The translations under genes were made by a program, and so were the position numbers. Shown here piece after piece: positions 1 through 9,089 of a DNA stretch of 64,000 nt (positions are counted from its first letter, which is position 1; each line of letters begins with the position of its first letter). Location: NCBI GenBank assembly GCA_029244985.1, contig JAQWQD010000033.1:1-64000 (forward strand). The letters are read 5' to 3'. The notes beneath the pieces were generated by a model. That model made no database searches, was not told the DNA's origin, and saw only the letters and a program-made list of their open reading frames with translations. This DNA comes from Gammaproteobacteria bacterium (GTDB lineage Bacteria; Pseudomonadota; Gammaproteobacteria; Pseudomonadales; Pseudohongiellaceae).

Positions 1-72
1 AATTGGTAGACGCGCTAGATTTAGGTTCTAGTATCGCAAGGTGTGAGAGTTCAAGTCTCTCCGTCCGCACCA
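1..72 (+). tRNA. tRNA-Leu (UAG), 5' end cut by window edge
   Basis: This is the 3' part of a leucine tRNA. It shows the D-loop GGTAGAC, an anticodon stem-loop with loop ATTTAGG (anticodon TAG), the long variable arm typical of tRNA-Leu, the T-loop GTTCAAGTC and an encoded CCA at 70-72. The acceptor 3' strand GTCCGCA implies a 5' strand TGCGGAC just outside the window. The last 18 bases (55-72) are repeated downstream at 2219-2236, so the gene serves as an integration target. Confidence 0.93.
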
Positions 73-145
73 TTCACTCCAGTAAGTCTCTGAAATCCCT
101 GAAGTCTCTCCAGAACAGGGGTCAAAGTAGACAATGGGGTAGACA
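55..145. repeat. Direct repeat copy 1: tRNA 3' end core plus left arm
   Basis: About 91 bp match 2219-2309 with only a few differences visible by eye (for example at 109, 121 and 138). The first 18 bases are the tRNA 3' end; the rest is outside the tRNA. An inverted pair CCCTG (97-101) and CAGGG (116-120) lies inside it, followed by two GTAGACA heptamers at 127-133 and 139-145. Weaker similarity continues to about 161. Confidence 0.88.
127..145 (+). promoter_or_regulatory. Paired GTAGACA heptamers, left arm of cassette A
   Basis: Two GTAGACA words start at 127 and 139, that is 12 bp apart. The same arrangement recurs at 2110/2122 near the right end of this cassette and, with one changed base, at 2291/2303 in the left arm of the next cassette. 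Same-strand heptamer pairs flanking a tRNA core resemble arm-type recombinase binding sites, but that role is inferred. Confidence 0.45.
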
Positions 146-198
146 CAAAAGCATCCCCAATATACTTATCAAAAAAATCCTTTGGTGGTGGACTGGGT

Positions 199-204
199 TA
201 TAAT
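199..204 (+). promoter_or_regulatory. Possible -10 box for the cassette A gene
   Basis: A perfect TATAAT sits 156 bp before the chosen start of the cassette gene. No good -35 element is visible at 16-18 bp, so this is only a candidate promoter. Confidence 0.3.
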
Positions 205-359
205 ACTTAATTGAATTAATTGAGTCTGGAAAGTTATTAGCTCCTGACTCAGGCTATGACCTTCTCCGGGCGAGCCATCTTCTAAAGCTAACCACTTGAA
301 AGACTTCTATAACTTCAGAGCCTTTGGAGCCAGTGGTGACCAAACGGTTGACTAAATTA

Positions 360-1982
360 ATGAAAAATAGAATTTTTTTCCTGCTTGCTTTCGTGTTCAG
401 TTTCGCAACTTCCATAGTTGAGGCTCTTGATGCGCATGTAGTAATGGTGCGCGCTGTGAGCGTTCCAGATGAGTGGACGCCGTTTCAGAAAACTGGTGGT
501 TGGGATGGGGCTGTGAAAATAAAGGAATCTGAATTTGCCAAATATTATGAGATCGTGATCTGGGAAGGTATTAAAGCGATCCACTTATATGCATTTACTG
601 ATTATTATAATGAATATAATAACCCTAACCGCGATCCTAACTGGGATGACTGGGAGTATCGCGAAACCTTTCTTGTTGAAAAGGTAGAGAATATCCCCGA
701 CGGGGGTACTCCTGAAGAAAATGGCGCCCGTAGTTTATATTTAAAAAACGCAATAGTTGGCTTTGTGGAAACTATTGCTGAGAAACATCCTCATTCCGAG
801 TACTCGTTTACTTACAATGGTCATGGCGCTCCAGGAGGGGCAAGTTTTGAACTTCAAATTTCGCCTCAACATACTTATGACCTATTTAGGTCTTGGAAAA
901 ATTTGATTGGGAAAAATTTAGCCTTTGTAGATATGGGCGGTCCTTGCAATAAAGGAGGATTTTCTGACCTAGCAACTTTTTGCCCATTTACTGATTACTA
1001 CATTGCAAGTGATTTGCCTAATGGTGGATACCAGGATGACAATTGGACATATGAAAAATACCTAGCTACTGATATTGATACGCAGTGGCACACTATTTTC
1101 GAGAACAGTGACTCAATGCTGGATGCGTTAAAAAAACGCATCGATTTAAAGCGGCAAAGTTATCTCGATGCAATAAATAACATGACCGAAAATAAAATAG
1201 AACAAGCTAACTACCTTTACTCGTGCCCCGCATTTAACACGTTTAGCCCATTATATCTTCGACAGGTTGAAGAGTCTTTTGACCCAGCTGGCGATCGCGC
1301 CTCCATTTTTAGTTCGCTTTACTATGGTGAAGATGGAAACAGCGGTGCACTACCAGAAAATCTTAATTGGGATCTGCGGCAATCGGTTGTTGCTTCAGGA
1401 AATCAGGAACTTCTCGAGGCATTGGAAAATGTCATTGTTTATCAGGCAGACAATAGAGACTTTTTCGAATGGGAGGTGAATGCGTCCGGTTTAGCAACGC
1501 CCAATTCACTTTTTAGGTATGGAGACGCAATAGATCTAGATTTAAACAATGGGCTACCCGTACCTGGCGGATGGCCTTCACCTTATAATGGAATAACACC
1601 AGACTCATCTCTCGGACTAGCCTCTAATAATATAGGTGTTTTTAATACTACCGATTCAACAATCTATGCTTGTTTAAAAGTATTTACAAATGGGTTAGAA
1701 AGTTCGGCAAATGGTATTAGTGAGTTCGATATAGGGTTGGAGGTAGTATCGCTTTCAGAAGCGACAGTTCAAATAATTAAATACAGAGAGTTTAATGCCA
1801 ACGGTGCAAGTAACGAAAATGGCGAGCCACCTCATTGTAGCGGTAAGTTTGAAACTACTACTGGGGTATATACGGACATTATGCAGACTGGAACGAGTGT
1901 TTTGGATACTACATGGAGTCTAATTGACCCCGCAAGTATGATTCTTAAGCTAGATGGCTATAAAGAATTAACTGCGAACTAG
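360..1982 (+). CDS. Secreted clostripain/caspase-fold peptidase-like protein
   Basis: A 540-residue protein with a clear signal peptide (MKNRIFFLLAF... through about residue 22), so it is exported. The ATG at 360 was chosen over an upstream TTG at 324 because the signal peptide begins there. Two motifs suggest a clan CD cysteine peptidase fold like clostripain (C11): YNGHG with His155, and DMGGPC with Cys196, followed by a segment (YYIASDLPNGGY) resembling the one after the catalytic Cys in that family. The spacing of about 40 residues fits the His-Cys spacing of the clan. The usual Asp-x-Cys context is altered, so activity is uncertain. The C-terminal half (about 280-540) has no fold I recognise. 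It is the only gene of cassette A and is probably cargo. Confidence 0.6.
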   Translation: MKNRIFFLLAFVFSFATSIVEALDAHVVMVRAVSVPDEWTPFQKTGGWDGAVKIKESEFAKYYEIVIWEGIKAIHLYAFTDYYNEYNNPNRDPNWDDWEYRETFLVEKVENIPDGGTPEENGARSLYLKNAIVGFVETIAEKHPHSEYSFTYNGHGAPGGASFELQISPQHTYDLFRSWKNLIGKNLAFVDMGGPCNKGGFSDLATFCPFTDYYIASDLPNGGYQDDNWTYEKYLATDIDTQWHTIFENSDSMLDALKKRIDLKRQSYLDAINNMTENKIEQANYLYSCPAFNTFSPLYLRQVEESFDPAGDRASIFSSLYYGEDGNSGALPENLNWDLRQSVVASGNQELLEALENVIVYQADNRDFFEWEVNASGLATPNSLFRYGDAIDLDLNNGLPVPGGWPSPYNGITPDSSLGLASNNIGVFNTTDSTIYACLKVFTNGLESSANGISEFDIGLEVVSLSEATVQIIKYREFNANGASNENGEPPHCSGKFETTTGVYTDIMQTGTSVLDTTWSLIDPASMILKLDGYKELTAN

Positions 1983-2013
1983 TTTCCACCCAAAACCTCT
2001 AAAAACTGTAGAG

Positions 2014-2034
2014 CCTCTGGTATATATACAGAGG
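2014..2034 (+). terminator. Hairpin after the cassette A gene
   Basis: CCTCTG (2014-2019) and CAGAGG (2029-2034) form a 6-bp stem with an AT-rich 9-base loop 32 bp after the stop codon. There is no T-tract, so it is at best a weak intrinsic terminator. Confidence 0.35.
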
Positions 2035-2109
2035 GGGTGGCATGGGCTTCTGCCTAGACCCTCCGCAATGAGTCTTTAAGAAACTATAAGGACTTTAAAG
2101 ATCTCTAGA

Positions 2110-2128
2110 GTAGACATCCGGGTAGACA
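2110..2128 (+). promoter_or_regulatory. Paired GTAGACA heptamers near the right end of cassette A
   Basis: GTAGACA occurs at 2110-2116 and again at 2122-2128, with the same 12-bp step and orientation as in the left arm. It lies just outside the right-arm repeat. A matching pair is not seen near the right end of cassette B. Confidence 0.45.
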
Positions 2129-2133
2129 TTTTG

Positions 2134-2160
2134 AGTCCCTTGACAGTGAACTCAGGGACT
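2134..2160. repeat. 7-bp inverted repeat at the right arm of cassette A
   Basis: AGTCCCT (2134-2140) and AGGGACT (2154-2160) are perfect inverted copies around a 13-base loop. They abut the right-arm repeat. They could be a recombinase or accessory-factor site, or a transcription stop for the cassette. Confidence 0.4.
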
Positions 2161-2236
2161 GTAAAGCTAAGAAATACGCGGGATTACAGAACTGCTGGGT
2201 CTTATGTAAGGAACGGATGTCTCTCCGTCCGCACCA
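2148..2236. repeat. Right arm plus core, copy 1
   Basis: About 89 bp ending in the tRNA 3' core and CCA. The copy at 2467-2556 matches it at roughly nine positions in ten by eye, with one single-base gap. The arm is not tRNA sequence: its 5' end does not pair with the acceptor strand, so it is not simply a decayed tRNA gene. A short CGGA/TCCG stem sits across the arm-core junction in both copies. Confidence 0.8.
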
Positions 2237-2309
2237 TTCACTCCAGTAAGTCTCTGAAATCCCTGAAGTCTCCCCAGAACAGGGTTCAAAGTAGACAATG
2301 GGATAGACA
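2219..2309. repeat. Direct repeat copy 2: core plus left arm of cassette B
   Basis: Second copy of 55-145, at a constant offset of 2164 bp. It includes the 18-base tRNA end and the left arm with heptamers GTAGACA (2291-2297) and ATAGACA (2303-2309), again stepped by 12 bp. Confidence 0.88.
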
Positions 2310-2556
2310 AAAAGTACCCTCAATGACGAGAAGCTATAGCATGCTCTCAATGGTTTCACGAGAAGAGCGCGCAATACTGTCACGTTGATTCACAGTCAAA
2401 CATACTAGCCGGGGAATATTGGAACCGATCACCTTCTCTTGTTCACAGATTATTCTCTCACCTGGAGAACTAAAGGATTGTAAAGCTAAGAAATATGCAG
2501 GATTACAGAACTGCTTGGTCTTAGGTAAAGGAGCGGATTACTCTCCGTCCGCGCCA
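2237..2556 (+). mobile_element. Empty cassette B, 320 bp
   Basis: A second unit has the same left arm (2237-2309) and right arm (2467-2540) as cassette A but only about 160 bp between them, and no credible gene. It ends in a diverged core (CTCTCCGTCCGCGCCA, 2541-2556) with G in place of the A before CCA. It may be a deleted element, or the minimal form that keeps only the ends. Confidence 0.55.
2467..2556. repeat. Right arm plus core, copy 2
   Basis: Partner of 2148-2236. The core copy here differs from the tRNA end at the discriminator base and is the most distal copy, so it may mark the original chromosome-side junction of the array. Confidence 0.8.
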
Positions 2557-2641
2557 AATCAGTATTTCATACCGTCTAATAAGATCCTATAAGCTCCTAG
2601 ATAGGGTGGTTATAAGAACTTAAACTAAGGGTAAAGAAATT

Positions 2642-2851
2642 ATGAGTGAAAATAATGACGTAGTAACTACGGGGAATTGGATCATCACGTATCTAATTAT
2701 GTGTATTCCGTTAATTAATATTATTATGTTATTTGTATGGGCTTTTGGTGGCGGGGCTCAAGCTTCAAAAGCAAATTGGGCTAAAGCTTCGTTAATATGG
2801 ATTGTAATATCTATTATTTTGGCCATTTTATTAATGGCTTCAGTTTTATGA
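2642..2851 (+). CDS. Small two-helix membrane protein, unknown function
   Basis: A 69-residue protein with two hydrophobic segments (about residues 13-34 and 46-67) separated by a short polar loop with GGGAQASKANWAKA. The W-A-x-G/N-K-A-N-W-A-K-A pattern recurs in small membrane proteins of many bacteria, but I know no assigned function. The start is the first ATG after GGGTAAAGAAATT. It is the first gene after the tRNA-Leu cassette array and is followed 54 bp later by another small membrane protein, so the three small genes up to 3508 may be one transcript. Confidence 0.7.
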   Translation: MSENNDVVTTGNWIITYLIMCIPLINIIMLFVWAFGGGAQASKANWAKASLIWIVISIILAILLMASVL

Positions 2852-2905
2852 TTTTGGTTTCTAATTTGAAGTTTTGTTTAAAGATTCATAACAGAGGATA
2901 GATTA

Positions 2906-3148
2906 ATGATTGAAAGACTAGCTTTAGTACTTCACTGGGTAGGATTTATTTGCCTATCGTTTGCTGTCGTCTTTGGAGTGATTCTTCAGTCACTTACTAA
3001 TACAGCATTCTATTCATTATTATTGATAGCAGCAGGAGCCTGGCCTATTCAGTTTATTCTCACTGGCGACAAATCCATCTTTCCTTGGCAAATGAAATAC
3101 TCCTGGACGCTGCAAAAAGGGATACACGCTTCAGGAGATGAGAATTAG
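2906..3148 (+). CDS. Small membrane protein, unknown function
   Basis: An 80-residue protein with two hydrophobic stretches (about residues 8-30 and 34-52) and a polar tail with several aromatic residues. The start is supported by AGAGGA about 9 bases upstream. Its stop is 3 bp before the next start, so the two are very likely co-transcribed. I do not recognise the family. Confidence 0.65.
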   Translation: MIERLALVLHWVGFICLSFAVVFGVILQSLTNTAFYSLLLIAAGAWPIQFILTGDKSIFPWQMKYSWTLQKGIHASGDEN

Positions 3149-3151
3149 GCT

Positions 3152-3508
3152 ATGAAGAAATTGTTAATAATATTAACTATTTTTTTACTGCCATTTCAGT
3201 CTCAAGCCTCAGGAATTTATGATGGAATATGGCAGTTTCCTGCGGGTATCTTTGCCACGGTAAATCAGAATGGGAGCTCTTTAGCTGTAATAATTCTGCA
3301 GAACACAATCTGGGAAGCTCAATTAGGAACCCTTGTGGGAAATAGAGCTACAATAGCTACTGTCTACGGATATGTGTCGGCGACTATAGAAATAGTTTTC
3401 AATTCACCTACTTCGGCAGCAGTCACTATTATTAGCTGCATAAATGGACCAACAGAGGCGTGCCTGTTTCCTGCAGGAACTCAGCTTATTGGCACTAAGA
3501 TTTTCTAG
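3152..3508 (+). CDS. Small secreted protein, unknown function
   Basis: A 118-residue protein with an N-terminal signal peptide (lysines then a hydrophobic run to about residue 17, likely cleaved near QASG). The mature part is rich in Val, Thr and Ile and looks all-beta, with two cysteines (in the CINGPTEAC region) that could form a disulfide. It follows the preceding membrane protein gene by 3 bp. No family was recognised. Confidence 0.6.
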   Translation: MKKLLIILTIFLLPFQSQASGIYDGIWQFPAGIFATVNQNGSSLAVIILQNTIWEAQLGTLVGNRATIATVYGYVSATIEIVFNSPTSAAVTIISCINGPTEACLFPAGTQLIGTKIF

Positions 3509-3651
3509 CAATTTTTCAATTTTTAGATTCTAAGTGTTTGCTCTAGCCTATCTTCTTGGTATGCACGCACTGGTTATCTCTATGACTTTTTAACTAGTGC
3601 AGAACTGCCAGCTGGTTGCTCATCATTCTCGAACTACGTTATCCTGATTTT

Positions 3652-4401
3652 ATGAAAGATCTTTTTAAACAACGAGGCAAGCAGAGCGACAAACGGCAAT
3701 TGTCCAAGAAAAATTCTGACATAGATAAAGTATCCAGCAAAAATGATGTACAGAGTTTTCTTTCCAAGGTGGCAGCCATGCCGCAAACCGGAGGAGATGC
3801 TCGGCTGTTATTTTCCCTTGATGCTACTGCGAGTCGTGAAGCAACTTGGGACGTAGCAAGTCAGCTTCAGACTGAAATGTTTTTGAGTAGTCAGGCATTG
3901 GGCGGAATAAATGTGCAACTTTGTTATTTTCGCGGGTTTGGTGAATTTTTTAGCAGCGACTGGCAAACCAATGCTGATGAGCTGGTTCGAATCATGTCCC
4001 GTATTCACTGTCAGGCTGGTGCTACTCAGATTGAGCGTGTTCTCAGGCATGCTATTCAGGAAAATGAAGTAAAAACAATAAAATGTGTTGTGTATATCGG
4101 TGATGCGATGGAAGAGAACATAGATATGCTTGCACAATTAGCTGGTAAACTCGGTCTCTTGAAAATTCCAGTATTTATGTTTCAAGAAAGGGGAGACCCT
4201 GTTGCGAGAAATGCTTTTATAGAATTAAGCAGGCTTTCGGGAGGTGCGTATTTTCAGTTCGATAGAGCCAGCGCAGAACAATTGAAAGACTTATTAAAAG
4301 CGGTTGCTATTTATACTGCTGGAGGCCTGAAAGCCTTAAAAGATTTTAGTAAATCTTCTTCCAAGAACGTAAAATTACTGGAACAACAGTTAAAATATTA
4401 A
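3652..4401 (+). CDS. VWA-domain protein
   Basis: A 249-residue cytoplasmic protein. After a basic N-terminal region of about 45 residues there is one von Willebrand factor A domain with a metal site: FSLDATAS (D-x-T-x-S form of the D-x-S-x-S motif), a downstream GATQIE threonine and the VVYIGDAMEE aspartate. Such domains bind partner proteins through a divalent metal. The ATG at 3652 was chosen rather than an upstream TTG at 3616 that has no ribosome site. It lies 54 bp before a membrane J-domain gene in the same direction, suggesting a joint role in handling protein complexes, but the partner is unknown. Confidence 0.75.
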   Translation: MKDLFKQRGKQSDKRQLSKKNSDIDKVSSKNDVQSFLSKVAAMPQTGGDARLLFSLDATASREATWDVASQLQTEMFLSSQALGGINVQLCYFRGFGEFFSSDWQTNADELVRIMSRIHCQAGATQIERVLRHAIQENEVKTIKCVVYIGDAMEENIDMLAQLAGKLGLLKIPVFMFQERGDPVARNAFIELSRLSGGAYFQFDRASAEQLKDLLKAVAIYTAGGLKALKDFSKSSSKNVKLLEQQLKY

Positions 4402-6147: not shown

Positions 6148-7485
6148 GTGATAAAAAAAATCGGAGAAATCTTTAAATCAGCGACATTGATTGAGCGCAA
6201 TGAGCAGAGGGCTGTTTTAGTGTCTTTTGCGTTGGTCTTTATCTTGATGGCGGCTTATTACATGTTGCGACCGGTGCGGGACGCAATGGCCAGTGATTGG
6301 TCTAATACCGAAATTAGTATTTTATGGAATATACAGTTTTTTCTGAGCCTTACATTTGTTGCGATTTATGGGGCATCAGTTTCCCGAATCAGTTTTAGAT
6401 TTCTCGTTCCTACAGTTTATGGTTTCTTTGCCTTAAGCTTCCTTTGTTTTTATTTAAGTTCCGGTTTGGTTTCTAGTCAGGTGTTATTGGATAAAGCCTT
6501 TTATCTTTGGGTAAGCCTGTTTTCACTTTTTCATGTGTCCGTTTTCTGGAGTTTGATGGCAGACCTTTACGATAAAGAGCAATCAAGAAGGCTTTTCGGT
6601 TTTATAGCGGTTGGCGCAAGCGCGGGTGCTATAGCTGGCCCATTAATCGCTGCCATGGCTGTAAATATTGCTGGCTCTGATGTGCTTATGCTGTGTGCAT
6701 CGTTCATGATGCTGTTGCCACTGCCTATTATTTTCTATCTGCAATATCTAAAAGTGACAGTTTTACACAATGAACGAGTCAAAGTTGATCTATCTCATGT
6801 CAAAATTGGCGGAAACTCTTTGGCAGGGTTCAGGCAGTTTTTTACCAGCCCCTATTTGATAGGAATAGCAGCTTTCATTCTCCTATACACTGCGATTGGT
6901 TCTTTTGCCTATTTTGAACAGGCAAATCTCTTGCGAGAATATAGCCGAGATGAGCGAACGGCAATTCTTGCTATTCTGGCGCTGGTTGTGAATATTCTAA
7001 CTTTCGTTCTTGGATTTTTTGCCACTAGTAGGTTGACTACACGTTTAGGAATGCCAGCTACTTTAGCGGTAGTTCCGCTATTTATGTGCGGTGCTCTATT
7101 AGTTCTAGCATTCGCGCCAATATTAACTGTTTTGCTGGCCCTGCAAGTCGCGAGACAAGCCGGCAACTACGGAATTACGAGGCCCGCCAGAGAAATGCTC
7201 TTTACTTCGGTTTCTCGAGAAGCTCGATTTAAGGCAAAACCGGTGGTTGATGTGGCTATTTACCGAGGTGGCGATGCCGTGTGGTCATCAGCATTTGCCG
7301 TCTTGACTGATGGGGTTGGTCTTGGCATTGGGGCAATGGCTGCAATAGGAGCAGGCATAGCAGCAATCTGGGCAGTGACAGGCGTTGCTCTCGGACGAGT
7401 ATTTAATAGAAAAAGTCAATCTCAGGAAGCAGATACAGGCGAAATCCAAGCAAACGCTCCCGAATTTTCGCCAAATCAACGATAG
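6148..7485 (+). CDS. NTT/MFS-type multi-spanning carrier
   Basis: An integral membrane protein of about 445 residues with around 12 hydrophobic segments. The first-helix sequence YYMLRPVRDAMA is the hallmark of bacterial proteins related to the ATP/ADP translocase (NTT) family, placed within the major facilitator fold. The free-living members are of unknown substrate. The GTG at 6148 puts about 20 residues before the first conserved helix, as in relatives; a GTG at 6088 would add 20 more residues. It lies 77 bp before the fumarase gene in the same direction. Nucleotide exchange should not be assumed. Confidence 0.7.
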   Translation: MIKKIGEIFKSATLIERNEQRAVLVSFALVFILMAAYYMLRPVRDAMASDWSNTEISILWNIQFFLSLTFVAIYGASVSRISFRFLVPTVYGFFALSFLCFYLSSGLVSSQVLLDKAFYLWVSLFSLFHVSVFWSLMADLYDKEQSRRLFGFIAVGASAGAIAGPLIAAMAVNIAGSDVLMLCASFMMLLPLPIIFYLQYLKVTVLHNERVKVDLSHVKIGGNSLAGFRQFFTSPYLIGIAAFILLYTAIGSFAYFEQANLLREYSRDERTAILAILALVVNILTFVLGFFATSRLTTRLGMPATLAVVPLFMCGALLVLAFAPILTVLLALQVARQAGNYGITRPAREMLFTSVSREARFKAKPVVDVAIYRGGDAVWSSAFAVLTDGVGLGIGAMAAIGAGIAAIWAVTGVALGRVFNRKSQSQEADTGEIQANAPEFSPNQR

Positions 7486-7562: not shown

Positions 7563-9089
7563 ATGACCCTTATCCGTAATGAAGATTTAATTCAAAGCAT
7601 CGCTGATGCATTGCAGTATATTTCCTATTACCATCCGCTAGATTTCGTGAAAGCTGTCAATGAGGCCTATGAGAAAGAAGAGTCCCCTGCAGCGAAAGAT
7701 GCTATGGCTCAAATTCTGATTAACTCAAGACTTTGTGCTGAGGGGAAAAGACCGATTTGTCAGGATACGGGAATTGTTACTGTATTTTTGAAAGTCGGAA
7801 TGGGAGTAAATTGGGAAGGTGACCTATCAATAGCAGATATGGTTAATGAAGGTGTTCGCAGAGCGTATCTATTACCTGAAAATGTATTGCGGGCTTCAAT
7901 ACTTTCAGATCCTGCAGGGGCCCGAAAAAATACTCAAGACAATACTCCGGCTGTCATACATACAGAAATTGTTAAAGGCAACACTATTGATGTGAAATTG
8001 GCGGCAAAAGGTGGGGGCTCTGAAAATAAAGCCAAGATGGTGATGTTGAATCCCAGCGATAGCATTGTGGATTGGATTGAAAAAACCTTGCCGACAATGG
8101 GCGCAGGTTGGTGTCCTCCAGGCATGCTGGGGATAGGCGTTGGTGGAACTGCGGAAAAAGCAGCTATTCTGGCTAAGGAATCTCTAATGGACCCAATAGA
8201 TATTCATGAATTAAGAGAGAGGGGTCCCAGTAACCGAATTGAAGAATTGCGATTAGAGATTATGGATCGCGTTAATGCGCTGGGTATTGGTGCTCAGGGA
8301 TTAGGCGGGCTAACGACAGTGCTAGACGTGAAAATAATGGATTACCCAACTCACGCGGCTTCATTGCCAATAGCGATGATTCCAAATTGCGCAGCTACTC
8401 GGCATGCGCACTTTACCCTGGATGGAAGTGGAAGTGCAGAACTGACGCCACCGAGCCTTGATGGATGGCCTGAAATTAGCTGGGATGTAGGTCCAAGAGC
8501 AAGGAAAGTTAATCTCGATGAAATTACTGCTGCAGACATCGTTGACTGGCAGCCAGGTGAAACTTTATTACTGACTGGAACAATGCTTACAGGCCGGGAT
8601 GCTGCTCATAAGCGTTTGTTGAGCATGCTTAGTAGTGGGCAATCCTTGCCAGAGGGAGTCAATTTCGATAATAAATTTATCTATTACGTAGGTCCGGTGG
8701 ATCCAGTAAGAGATGAAGTGATCGGCCCGGCCGGCCCTACGACGGCAACTAGAATGGATAAATTTACCGATGAGCTATTAGCAAAAACTGGACTTATAGG
8801 CATGATTGGAAAGGCAGAAAGGGGTGCTGCAGGCATCGAAGCAATTAAAAAGCATCGAGCGGTCTATTTAATGGCAGTGGGTGGTGCTGCCTATCTGGTT
8901 TCAAAAGCTATTCGCAAGTCTCGAATTGTTGCCTTCGAAGACTTAGGTATGGAGGCAATTCATGAATTTGAAGTTGAAGAAATGCCAGTAACTGTAGCGG
9001 TTGATGTAAATGGAACTTCAGTTCATCAAACTGGGCCTGCAATTTGGAAAGCGAAGATAGCAGAAGAGCACGCGATCGAAGTTACCTAA
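7563..9089 (+). CDS. fumA: Fumarate hydratase, class I
   Basis: A 508-residue iron-sulfur hydro-lyase interconverting fumarate and malate in the TCA cycle. It has the typical length and the fused alpha and beta domains of class I fumarases. The early cysteine motif ICQDTG (about residue 75), GWCPPGMLGIGVGG in the middle and the ANCAATRHAHF-like stretch fit the 4Fe-4S enzyme. The beta domain starts near residue 330 and contains VGPVDP and GPAGPTTATRMD. Class I fumarases are oxygen-sensitive. The start ATG has GAGGA about 10 bases upstream. Confidence 0.93.
   Translation: MTLIRNEDLIQSIADALQYISYYHPLDFVKAVNEAYEKEESPAAKDAMAQILINSRLCAEGKRPICQDTGIVTVFLKVGMGVNWEGDLSIADMVNEGVRRAYLLPENVLRASILSDPAGARKNTQDNTPAVIHTEIVKGNTIDVKLAAKGGGSENKAKMVMLNPSDSIVDWIEKTLPTMGAGWCPPGMLGIGVGGTAEKAAILAKESLMDPIDIHELRERGPSNRIEELRLEIMDRVNALGIGAQGLGGLTTVLDVKIMDYPTHAASLPIAMIPNCAATRHAHFTLDGSGSAELTPPSLDGWPEISWDVGPRARKVNLDEITAADIVDWQPGETLLLTGTMLTGRDAAHKRLLSMLSSGQSLPEGVNFDNKFIYYVGPVDPVRDEVIGPAGPTTATRMDKFTDELLAKTGLIGMIGKAERGAAGIEAIKKHRAVYLMAVGGAAYLVSKAIRKSRIVAFEDLGMEAIHEFEVEEMPVTVAVDVNGTSVHQTGPAIWKAKIAEEHAIEVT

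Follow-up and report, generated by a model that had tools for sequence, protein, structure and literature searches.

Stacked integrase-less units at a tRNA-Leu(UAG) attachment site, probable remnants of P4-type integrase islands

The stretch of DNA analysed here, termed the window, comprises positions 1 to 64,000 of contig JAQWQD010000033.1 from a gammaproteobacterium of the family Pseudohongiellaceae. It opens inside a tRNA-Leu(UAG) gene, behind which lies a tandem array of short units separated by copies of the tRNA 3' end (cores). The array is best explained as a set of accreted, cis-mobilizable-like remnants of P4-type integrase islands stacked at the tRNA-Leu(UAG) attachment site, a reading to which we assign a probability of about 0.68. 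It draws on the layout of the array, on empty sites and alternative cargo in relatives, on the failure to detect an integrase in the array, on heptamers adjoining an integrase gene in an array of a relative (G439) and on one unit present in one relative and absent from another.

An earlier note on this DNA had proposed the order core, left arm, cargo, right arm, core, left arm, right arm, core. This layout was confirmed at the coordinates given below, as were, by sequence comparison, the recurrence of the tRNA 3' end at 2219-2236 and in diverged form at 2541-2556, and, from the spacing between core starts, the unit lengths of 2164 bp and 320 bp. The extent that it gave was correct as far as 2556 and otherwise incomplete, in that the insert continues beyond this position and the arms also contain a pair of heptamers. 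The features of the two units are as follows.

1 to 72, forward strand: tRNA-Leu(UAG) gene, truncated by the contig start, the whole gene lying at the end of contig C50 of the same genome
55 to 72, forward strand: core copy 1, the tRNA 3' end
73 to 151, forward strand: left (L) arm of unit 1, scoring 95.1 bits with model R1, the arm itself being among the seven from which that model was made
127 to 145, forward strand: heptamer pair GTAGACA..GTAGACA, putative integrase sites of the arm type, resembling (partly by eye) the layout upstream of P4-type integrase genes
360 to 1982, forward strand: cargo open reading frame (ORF) of unit 1, 540 amino acids (aa) from the ATG at 360 or 552 aa from a TTG at 324
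1977 to 2053, forward strand: repeat towards the end of unit 1, with further copies in the first unit of G004, next to tRNA-SeC on C50, and in G006
2109 to 2218, forward strand: right (R) arm of unit 1, with a heptamer pair at 2110-2128; positions 2122-2197 are 89% identical in G429:C79
2219 to 2236, forward strand: core copy 2, identical to copy 1 at 18/18 positions
2237 to 2315, forward strand: L arm of unit 2, with a heptamer pair at 2291-2309 bearing one mismatch
2316 to 2466, forward strand: interior of unit 2, about 150 bp of non-shared DNA (a near-empty unit)
2467 to 2540, forward strand: R arm of unit 2, without a heptamer pair
2541 to 2556, forward strand: core copy 3, identical to the tRNA end at 15/16 positions

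Core and left arm together (55-149 and 2219-2313) were 96% identical over 95 nt, the left arms alone agreeing at 73 of 79 positions, and right arm plus core (2148-2236 and 2467-2556) were 86.7% identical over 90 nt. ARAGORN returned no tRNA from the window because the contig begins inside the tRNA gene. A complete tRNA-Leu (anticodon tag) stands at the end of C50, its anticodon being taken from the sequence and from the same gene in relatives. The final 141 bases of C50 match window positions 1-141 exactly, which looks like an overlap in the contig graph, and no contig of this genome other than C50 matched there.

No integrase or integrase remnant was found in positions 1-3700 of the window, either with a profile of 19 integrases or by tblastn with 45, both sets drawn from the genus and order. 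The same profile yielded zero integrase frames among frames of at least 40 aa in the window and ten other stretches with an L arm. When the 45 integrases were compared by tblastn with 15 stretches, 11 of them L-arm arrays, a single remnant was recovered in the 11: a piece of 36 aa, 69% identical, directly behind the L arm in G429. No PF00589 match was present on the array contigs of G000 (the genome of the window), G004, G429 and G425. In G007 and G013, elements at tRNA-Leu(UAG) whose arms are of a different type contain broken integrase pieces. With no integrase detected, the window array does not qualify as an autonomous P4-type island, which has its own Arm-DNA-bind_3 integrase. The earlier description of the units as integrase-less was borne out, and its suggestion that their ends resemble those of tyrosine-recombinase elements targeting tRNA 3' ends gained support.

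Two tyrosine recombinases were found in G000, which is 95.7% complete, on contigs C37 and C54. The P4-type enzyme of C37 was rejected as mover of the window units on account of a different upstream repeat (by eye). The gene for the C54 recombinase appears to be a chromosomal one of Xer-type, with a close counterpart in G429, and was likewise rejected. The earlier note's view that a recombinase encoded elsewhere moves the units is no more than a possibility. With PF00589 alone, one recombinase of G000 was recovered, the 400-aa protein of C54 (L076; counterpart on G429:C40, L183), and no separate XerC or XerD was listed, which may be a limit of the search.

A link to P4-type integrases is suggested by the heptamers. 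When up to one mismatch was allowed and the two heptamers of a pair had to begin 10-13 positions from each other, the 64 kb window contained, on both strands together, just the three pairs listed above (127-145, 2110-2128 and 2291-2309). All three lie in arms and share a strand; 60 dinucleotide shuffles yielded 0.12 pairs on average and never more than 2. Twelve other array loci scanned alike had a pair in four cases (G004, G429:C66, G429:C25 and G439). Integrases of the P4 type (Arm-DNA-bind_3, PF13356) are encoded in 52 of 84 genomes of the genus, and at many of the tRNA loci inspected by eye (sets of 18 and 13) a repeat pair precedes the integrase start, none being apparent in L094, L248 and L254. 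A scan of 110 integrase loci revealed the heptamer pair, with one mismatch, at L249 of G439; L231 and L251 showed it only at two mismatches.

The G439 array lies at tRNA-Leu(UAA). On the reverse complement of L294 it comprises a core at 586 with a pair at 670, a core at 1186 (two mismatches) with a pair, a unit with an integrase, and a core at 7602 with a pair at 7686, followed by further genes. In total there are four pairs of the heptamer family, each beside a core or at the start of the integrase frame. That frame is open for 440 aa from a GTG at 7444 (PF00589 and PF13356); it reaches an ATG only after another 22 codons, roughly 50 bp inward of the pair at 7426. The integrase unit also encodes a Phage_GPA protein and an HTH_17 protein, and no second integrase was found in the units on either side of the integrase. 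The earlier term 'satellite-like' suits this one relative, with its phage-type replication protein; no other case was observed.

Of 390 genomes of the order, two contained the exact heptamer pattern: G000, and also G372, where no integrase match lay beside the motif. It also occurred in 52 viral contigs, which by a rough estimate is about the number expected by chance. An integrase link for these loci was rejected; ten integrases matched two of them, far from the motif. From the sequence comparisons we infer that the heptamers of the window would be arm-type sites of an integrase.

Comparison with relatives was made between species of the genus. Among 30 relatives' loci (L025 and L043 to L071), the counterpart of the native gene that starts at window position 3652 begins within 300 bp of the tRNA in 18, which are regarded as empty sites. 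The distance exceeds 500 bp in 7, the contig or stretch ends first in 4, and the order is rearranged in one (G011). The commonest short distance is approximately 75 bp (G034, G015, G019, G003, G030 and G033). In G004, another species, arms of the same type accompany three cores at tRNA-Leu(UAG), at positions 0, +561 and +6757. A DNA search between this array and the window matched only stretches of tRNA, arm, core and end repeat, the ORFs being different. The first L arm of G004 is identical to that of the window at 72/79 positions, whereas the conserved gene upstream agrees at only 604/792. The check proposed earlier, for empty sites and for different cargo between like arms in relatives, thus found both. 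A conserved tRNA target, variable cassettes and empty alleles, as in additive tRNA-anchored islands, were all observed between species. Within the G004 array (L025, near 6893, 4116 and 2329), the start of what is apparently one small gene (MTNYTTLGG..., by eye) recurs as fragments.

A difference of one whole unit was observed at tRNA-Phe in G006 and G456, which are 92.6-93.1% identical around this gene. In G456 an L arm and its unit stand directly behind the tRNA, while in G006 an extra unit of 2,944 bp separates tRNA-Phe from the older core, and the tRNA end is duplicated over 46 bp. No integrase was detected in this unit with the 19-integrase profile and tblastn. It holds what we take, by eye, to be a broken sulfatase-like gene. 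The difference may reflect either gain in G006 or loss in G456.

The L-arm family was traced through the genus with R1, a sequence-only model made from seven L arms. Matches at E values up to 0.05 occurred in 9 of 84 genomes, and below 1e-5 in 7 (G000, G004, G425, G429, G431, G006 and G456), a count that excludes G437 and G017 (E 0.04-0.05). The best matches adjoin tRNA-Leu or tRNA-Phe genes or cores resembling tRNA ends. By ARAGORN, the arm immediately adjoins tRNA-Leu(CAG) in G429 and tRNA-Phe in both G431 and G456, whereas in G006 it stands behind a core copy 2.9 kb past tRNA-Phe. In G425 it follows a Phe-like core (6/24 mismatched) on a stretch containing no tRNA gene, and on G429:C66 the preceding core matches the 3' end of tRNA-Leu(GAG) (by eye). 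Weaker further matches in these genomes have degenerate or unclear cores. On G429:C66 (L302, reverse complement, near 183 and 8732), the tRNA-Leu(GAG)-like core is followed by one resembling tRNA-Leu(UAG), so that unlike cores bound an apparent single unit.

In public data, a pattern search for the L arm recovered no viral contigs and one stretch among genome contigs (metagenome-assembled genome UBA3498). Among the matches listed for phage and plasmid records (8 of 235 and 8 of 75), only the tRNA part matched. Model R1 applied to 100 of the 110 integrase loci gave one weak, unrelated match (L103, E 0.02).

Beyond core 3 the insert continues as a third segment, the features of which, together with the native flank, are the following.

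2557 to 2606, forward strand: left arm of another type, 40/50 identical to a stretch of G434 between tRNA-Leu(UAG) and an integrase frame
2642 to 3508, forward strand: three small ORFs (69, 80 and 118 aa)
3616 to 3651, forward strand: native flanking sequence, aligning to the empty sites of G034 and G019
3652 to 4401, forward strand: native neighbour gene, beside the tRNA in empty relatives, with no Pfam family

The native neighbour gene is 3580 bp from the tRNA in the window, and the insertion of about 3.5 kb therefore takes in the third segment. Its outer border falls between 3508 and 3616. Clear alignment of 3616-3651 was not obtained with the empty sites of G036, G003 and G012. The arm after core 3 is identical to the L arm of unit 1 at only 12/50 positions (ungapped). 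Its G434 counterpart precedes a short integrase frame of 258 aa, and 36/50 positions agree in G432 and G031. An 84-aa protein of the G429 array resembles the 80-aa ORF of the third segment (by eye).

The cargo protein of unit 1 had no Pfam match at E 0.1, NCBIfam matches below cut-off, a best PHROGs E value of 0.02, and no relative among solved structures (best E 1.1). Its last 126-137 aa are 56-69% identical in eight other loci, of G000 and seven relatives, the rest being unmatched; its first 401 aa are 46% identical in another locus of G034 (L031). The four cargo ORFs showed no match to known transfer families. A 42-base stretch ending at the cargo stop codon recurs with 95% identity on C72 of G000 (L029, about 1740-1781), where the remainder of the cargo gene was unmatched in the DNA search. 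The repeat at 1977-2053, close to where unit 1 ends on the right, is found again at L027 5202-5278, directly behind tRNA-SeC on C50, and at L038 5641-5728, a stretch of G006 ending (by eye) in the tRNA-SeC 3' end. End sequences may be common to islands at different tRNAs.

Under the proposed explanation, each unit would possess outer recombination DNA like that of an island with a P4-type (Arm-DNA-bind_3) integrase. The heptamer pair of the left arm would be bound by the arm-binding domain of the integrase, a second pair lying in the right arm of unit 1, and the integrase gene would have been lost from the units or never present. Newcomers would insert at the tRNA-adjacent core, restoring the tRNA 3' end, and older units would be displaced outward, there to undergo decay of core and arms. 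A unit whose arms are intact could be excised or re-inserted if an integrase of like heptamer specificity entered the cell or occupied a neighbouring unit, as in G439. Loss of the integrase and movement in trans are the conditional parts of this account.

Several observations weigh against it. As no remnant was found in the window, integrase loss there is only inferred, and decay in place is enough to account for much of the pattern; the integrase remnants in relatives fit such decay at least as well as movement in trans. Eight of the 12 other array loci, tRNA-Phe arrays included, showed no heptamer pair, nor did the right arm of unit 2. The arms of G439 are like those of the window in the heptamers alone, model R1 finding no match in L249, and the integrase of C37 has its different repeat. 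A strong R-arm match occurred in just one other genome of 84 (G429), with a weak one in G025 (E 0.017). The second L arm of G004 is identical at 62/79 positions and so no closer than the flanking gene. Across 26 genomes a single origin of the G000 and G004 arrays was not rejected (p-AU 0.216), although a single-gene tree separated them with weak support; vertical descent with change of cargo is possible for these arrays.

Of the alternatives, a regular cassette system is unlikely. Lacking an integrase would then be the normal state of a unit, and movement in trans between tRNA-Leu and tRNA-Phe sites would depend on integrases encoded by satellites or islands elsewhere, whether in the cell or in the population. 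That one L-arm family is found at tRNA-Leu(UAG), tRNA-Leu(CAG) and tRNA-Phe genes and at tRNA-end-like cores, with 11 profiled stretches free of an integrase frame, would agree with such a system, as would the mixture of one integrase unit with apparently integrase-less units in G439 and the unit present in G006 and absent from G456. A matching integrase was, however, not found in G000, and the P4-type integrases of G006, G431 and G456 that were scanned did not show the heptamer. Furthermore, decay is indicated by the remnants in G429, G007 and G013, and none of the cargo units was proven to occur at more than one tRNA gene. It is unlikely, too, that the genus has a tRNA-anchored cassette system in which the integrases of passing P4-type satellites capture integrase-less units with conserved arms and shuffle them at tRNA-Leu and tRNA-Phe genes, an integron-like division of labour with no resident integrase.

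That one old insertion underwent an ordinary tandem duplication and a later deletion, unit 2 being a shrunken unit 1, is quite improbable. Both arms are indeed common to the two units, and unit 2 has nearly no other DNA, but the arm after core 3 is of a different kind, similar to one in another integrase element, several cores accompany other cargo in G004, and empty sites exist. An assembly artefact, with repeats misjoined where the contig starts at a graph branch within the array, is suggested by the contig edge and its exact 141-base overlap and is scarcely credible given that the units are internal to one contig, that the two left arms differ at 6/79 nt and that the same design occurs in other genomes.

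If the units are stacked remnants of P4-type islands, they have close parallels in known systems. Cis-mobilizable elements (CIMEs) have lost their integration genes, keep attL and attR and occur in tandem with other elements, including at the end of a tRNA gene (PMC5704250). Unit 1 is likewise flanked by attL/attR-like ends (cores and arms), and no recombination or transfer genes were detected in the window array (1-3700; four cargo ORFs). Its kinship to integrase elements is drawn from the heptamer layout and the arm after core 3. The CIMEs in the sections of PMC5704250 used here derive from integrative and conjugative or integrative and mobilizable elements and can be mobilised with them, whereas no transfer gene was recognised here and the smaller unit measures only 320 bp. 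A parental element carrying both arms of the window was not found.

In the Dehalococcoides ssrA islands, as presented in the relevant part of PMC3146451, tandem islands are marked by repeats of the RNA gene end, and 15 without an integration module were proposed as possible cis-mobilizable elements. The tandem RNA-end repeats are alike; the window and its relatives differ in using tRNA-Leu and tRNA-Phe instead of tmRNA, and in integrase setting, cargo and bacteria. Additive flexible islands grow by cassettes added at a conserved tRNA, the last 20 nt of tRNA-Lys recurring (Alteromonas, PMC4119200; Methylophilaceae, PMC10872708), those of the Methylophilaceae spanning 330 bp to 42 kb (PMC10872708). 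Integrase arm repeats are not described in the portions of those papers drawn upon, whereas here repeats suggest a link to P4-type integrases. A tycheposon, as defined in the corresponding part of PMC10872708, combines a tRNA border with its own tyrosine recombinase, and the latter was undetected in the window array.

The P4-type islands of the same genus (G434, G439, G437 and others) share the tRNA targets, a repeat pair near the integrase start and a left arm of the core 3 type. Unlike the window units, in which none was detected, these islands have an integrase gene, of full or reduced length. An integron cassette array, with attC sites and IntI (no search aimed at these was made), does not fit unit borders that are tRNA 3' ends. 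The design is already covered by CIMEs, Dehalococcoides ssrA islands and additive islands, and the array is another case of known island growth. Among the matches listed in literature searches, no title or abstract start names this genus.

The genus presents several stages of stacking at tRNA sites side by side: empty sites, integrase-bearing islands, islands with shortened integrases, and bare cassettes. If the paired heptamer (GTAGACA or GTAGGCA) is truly an arm site, it would allow prediction of which integrase could move which cassette.

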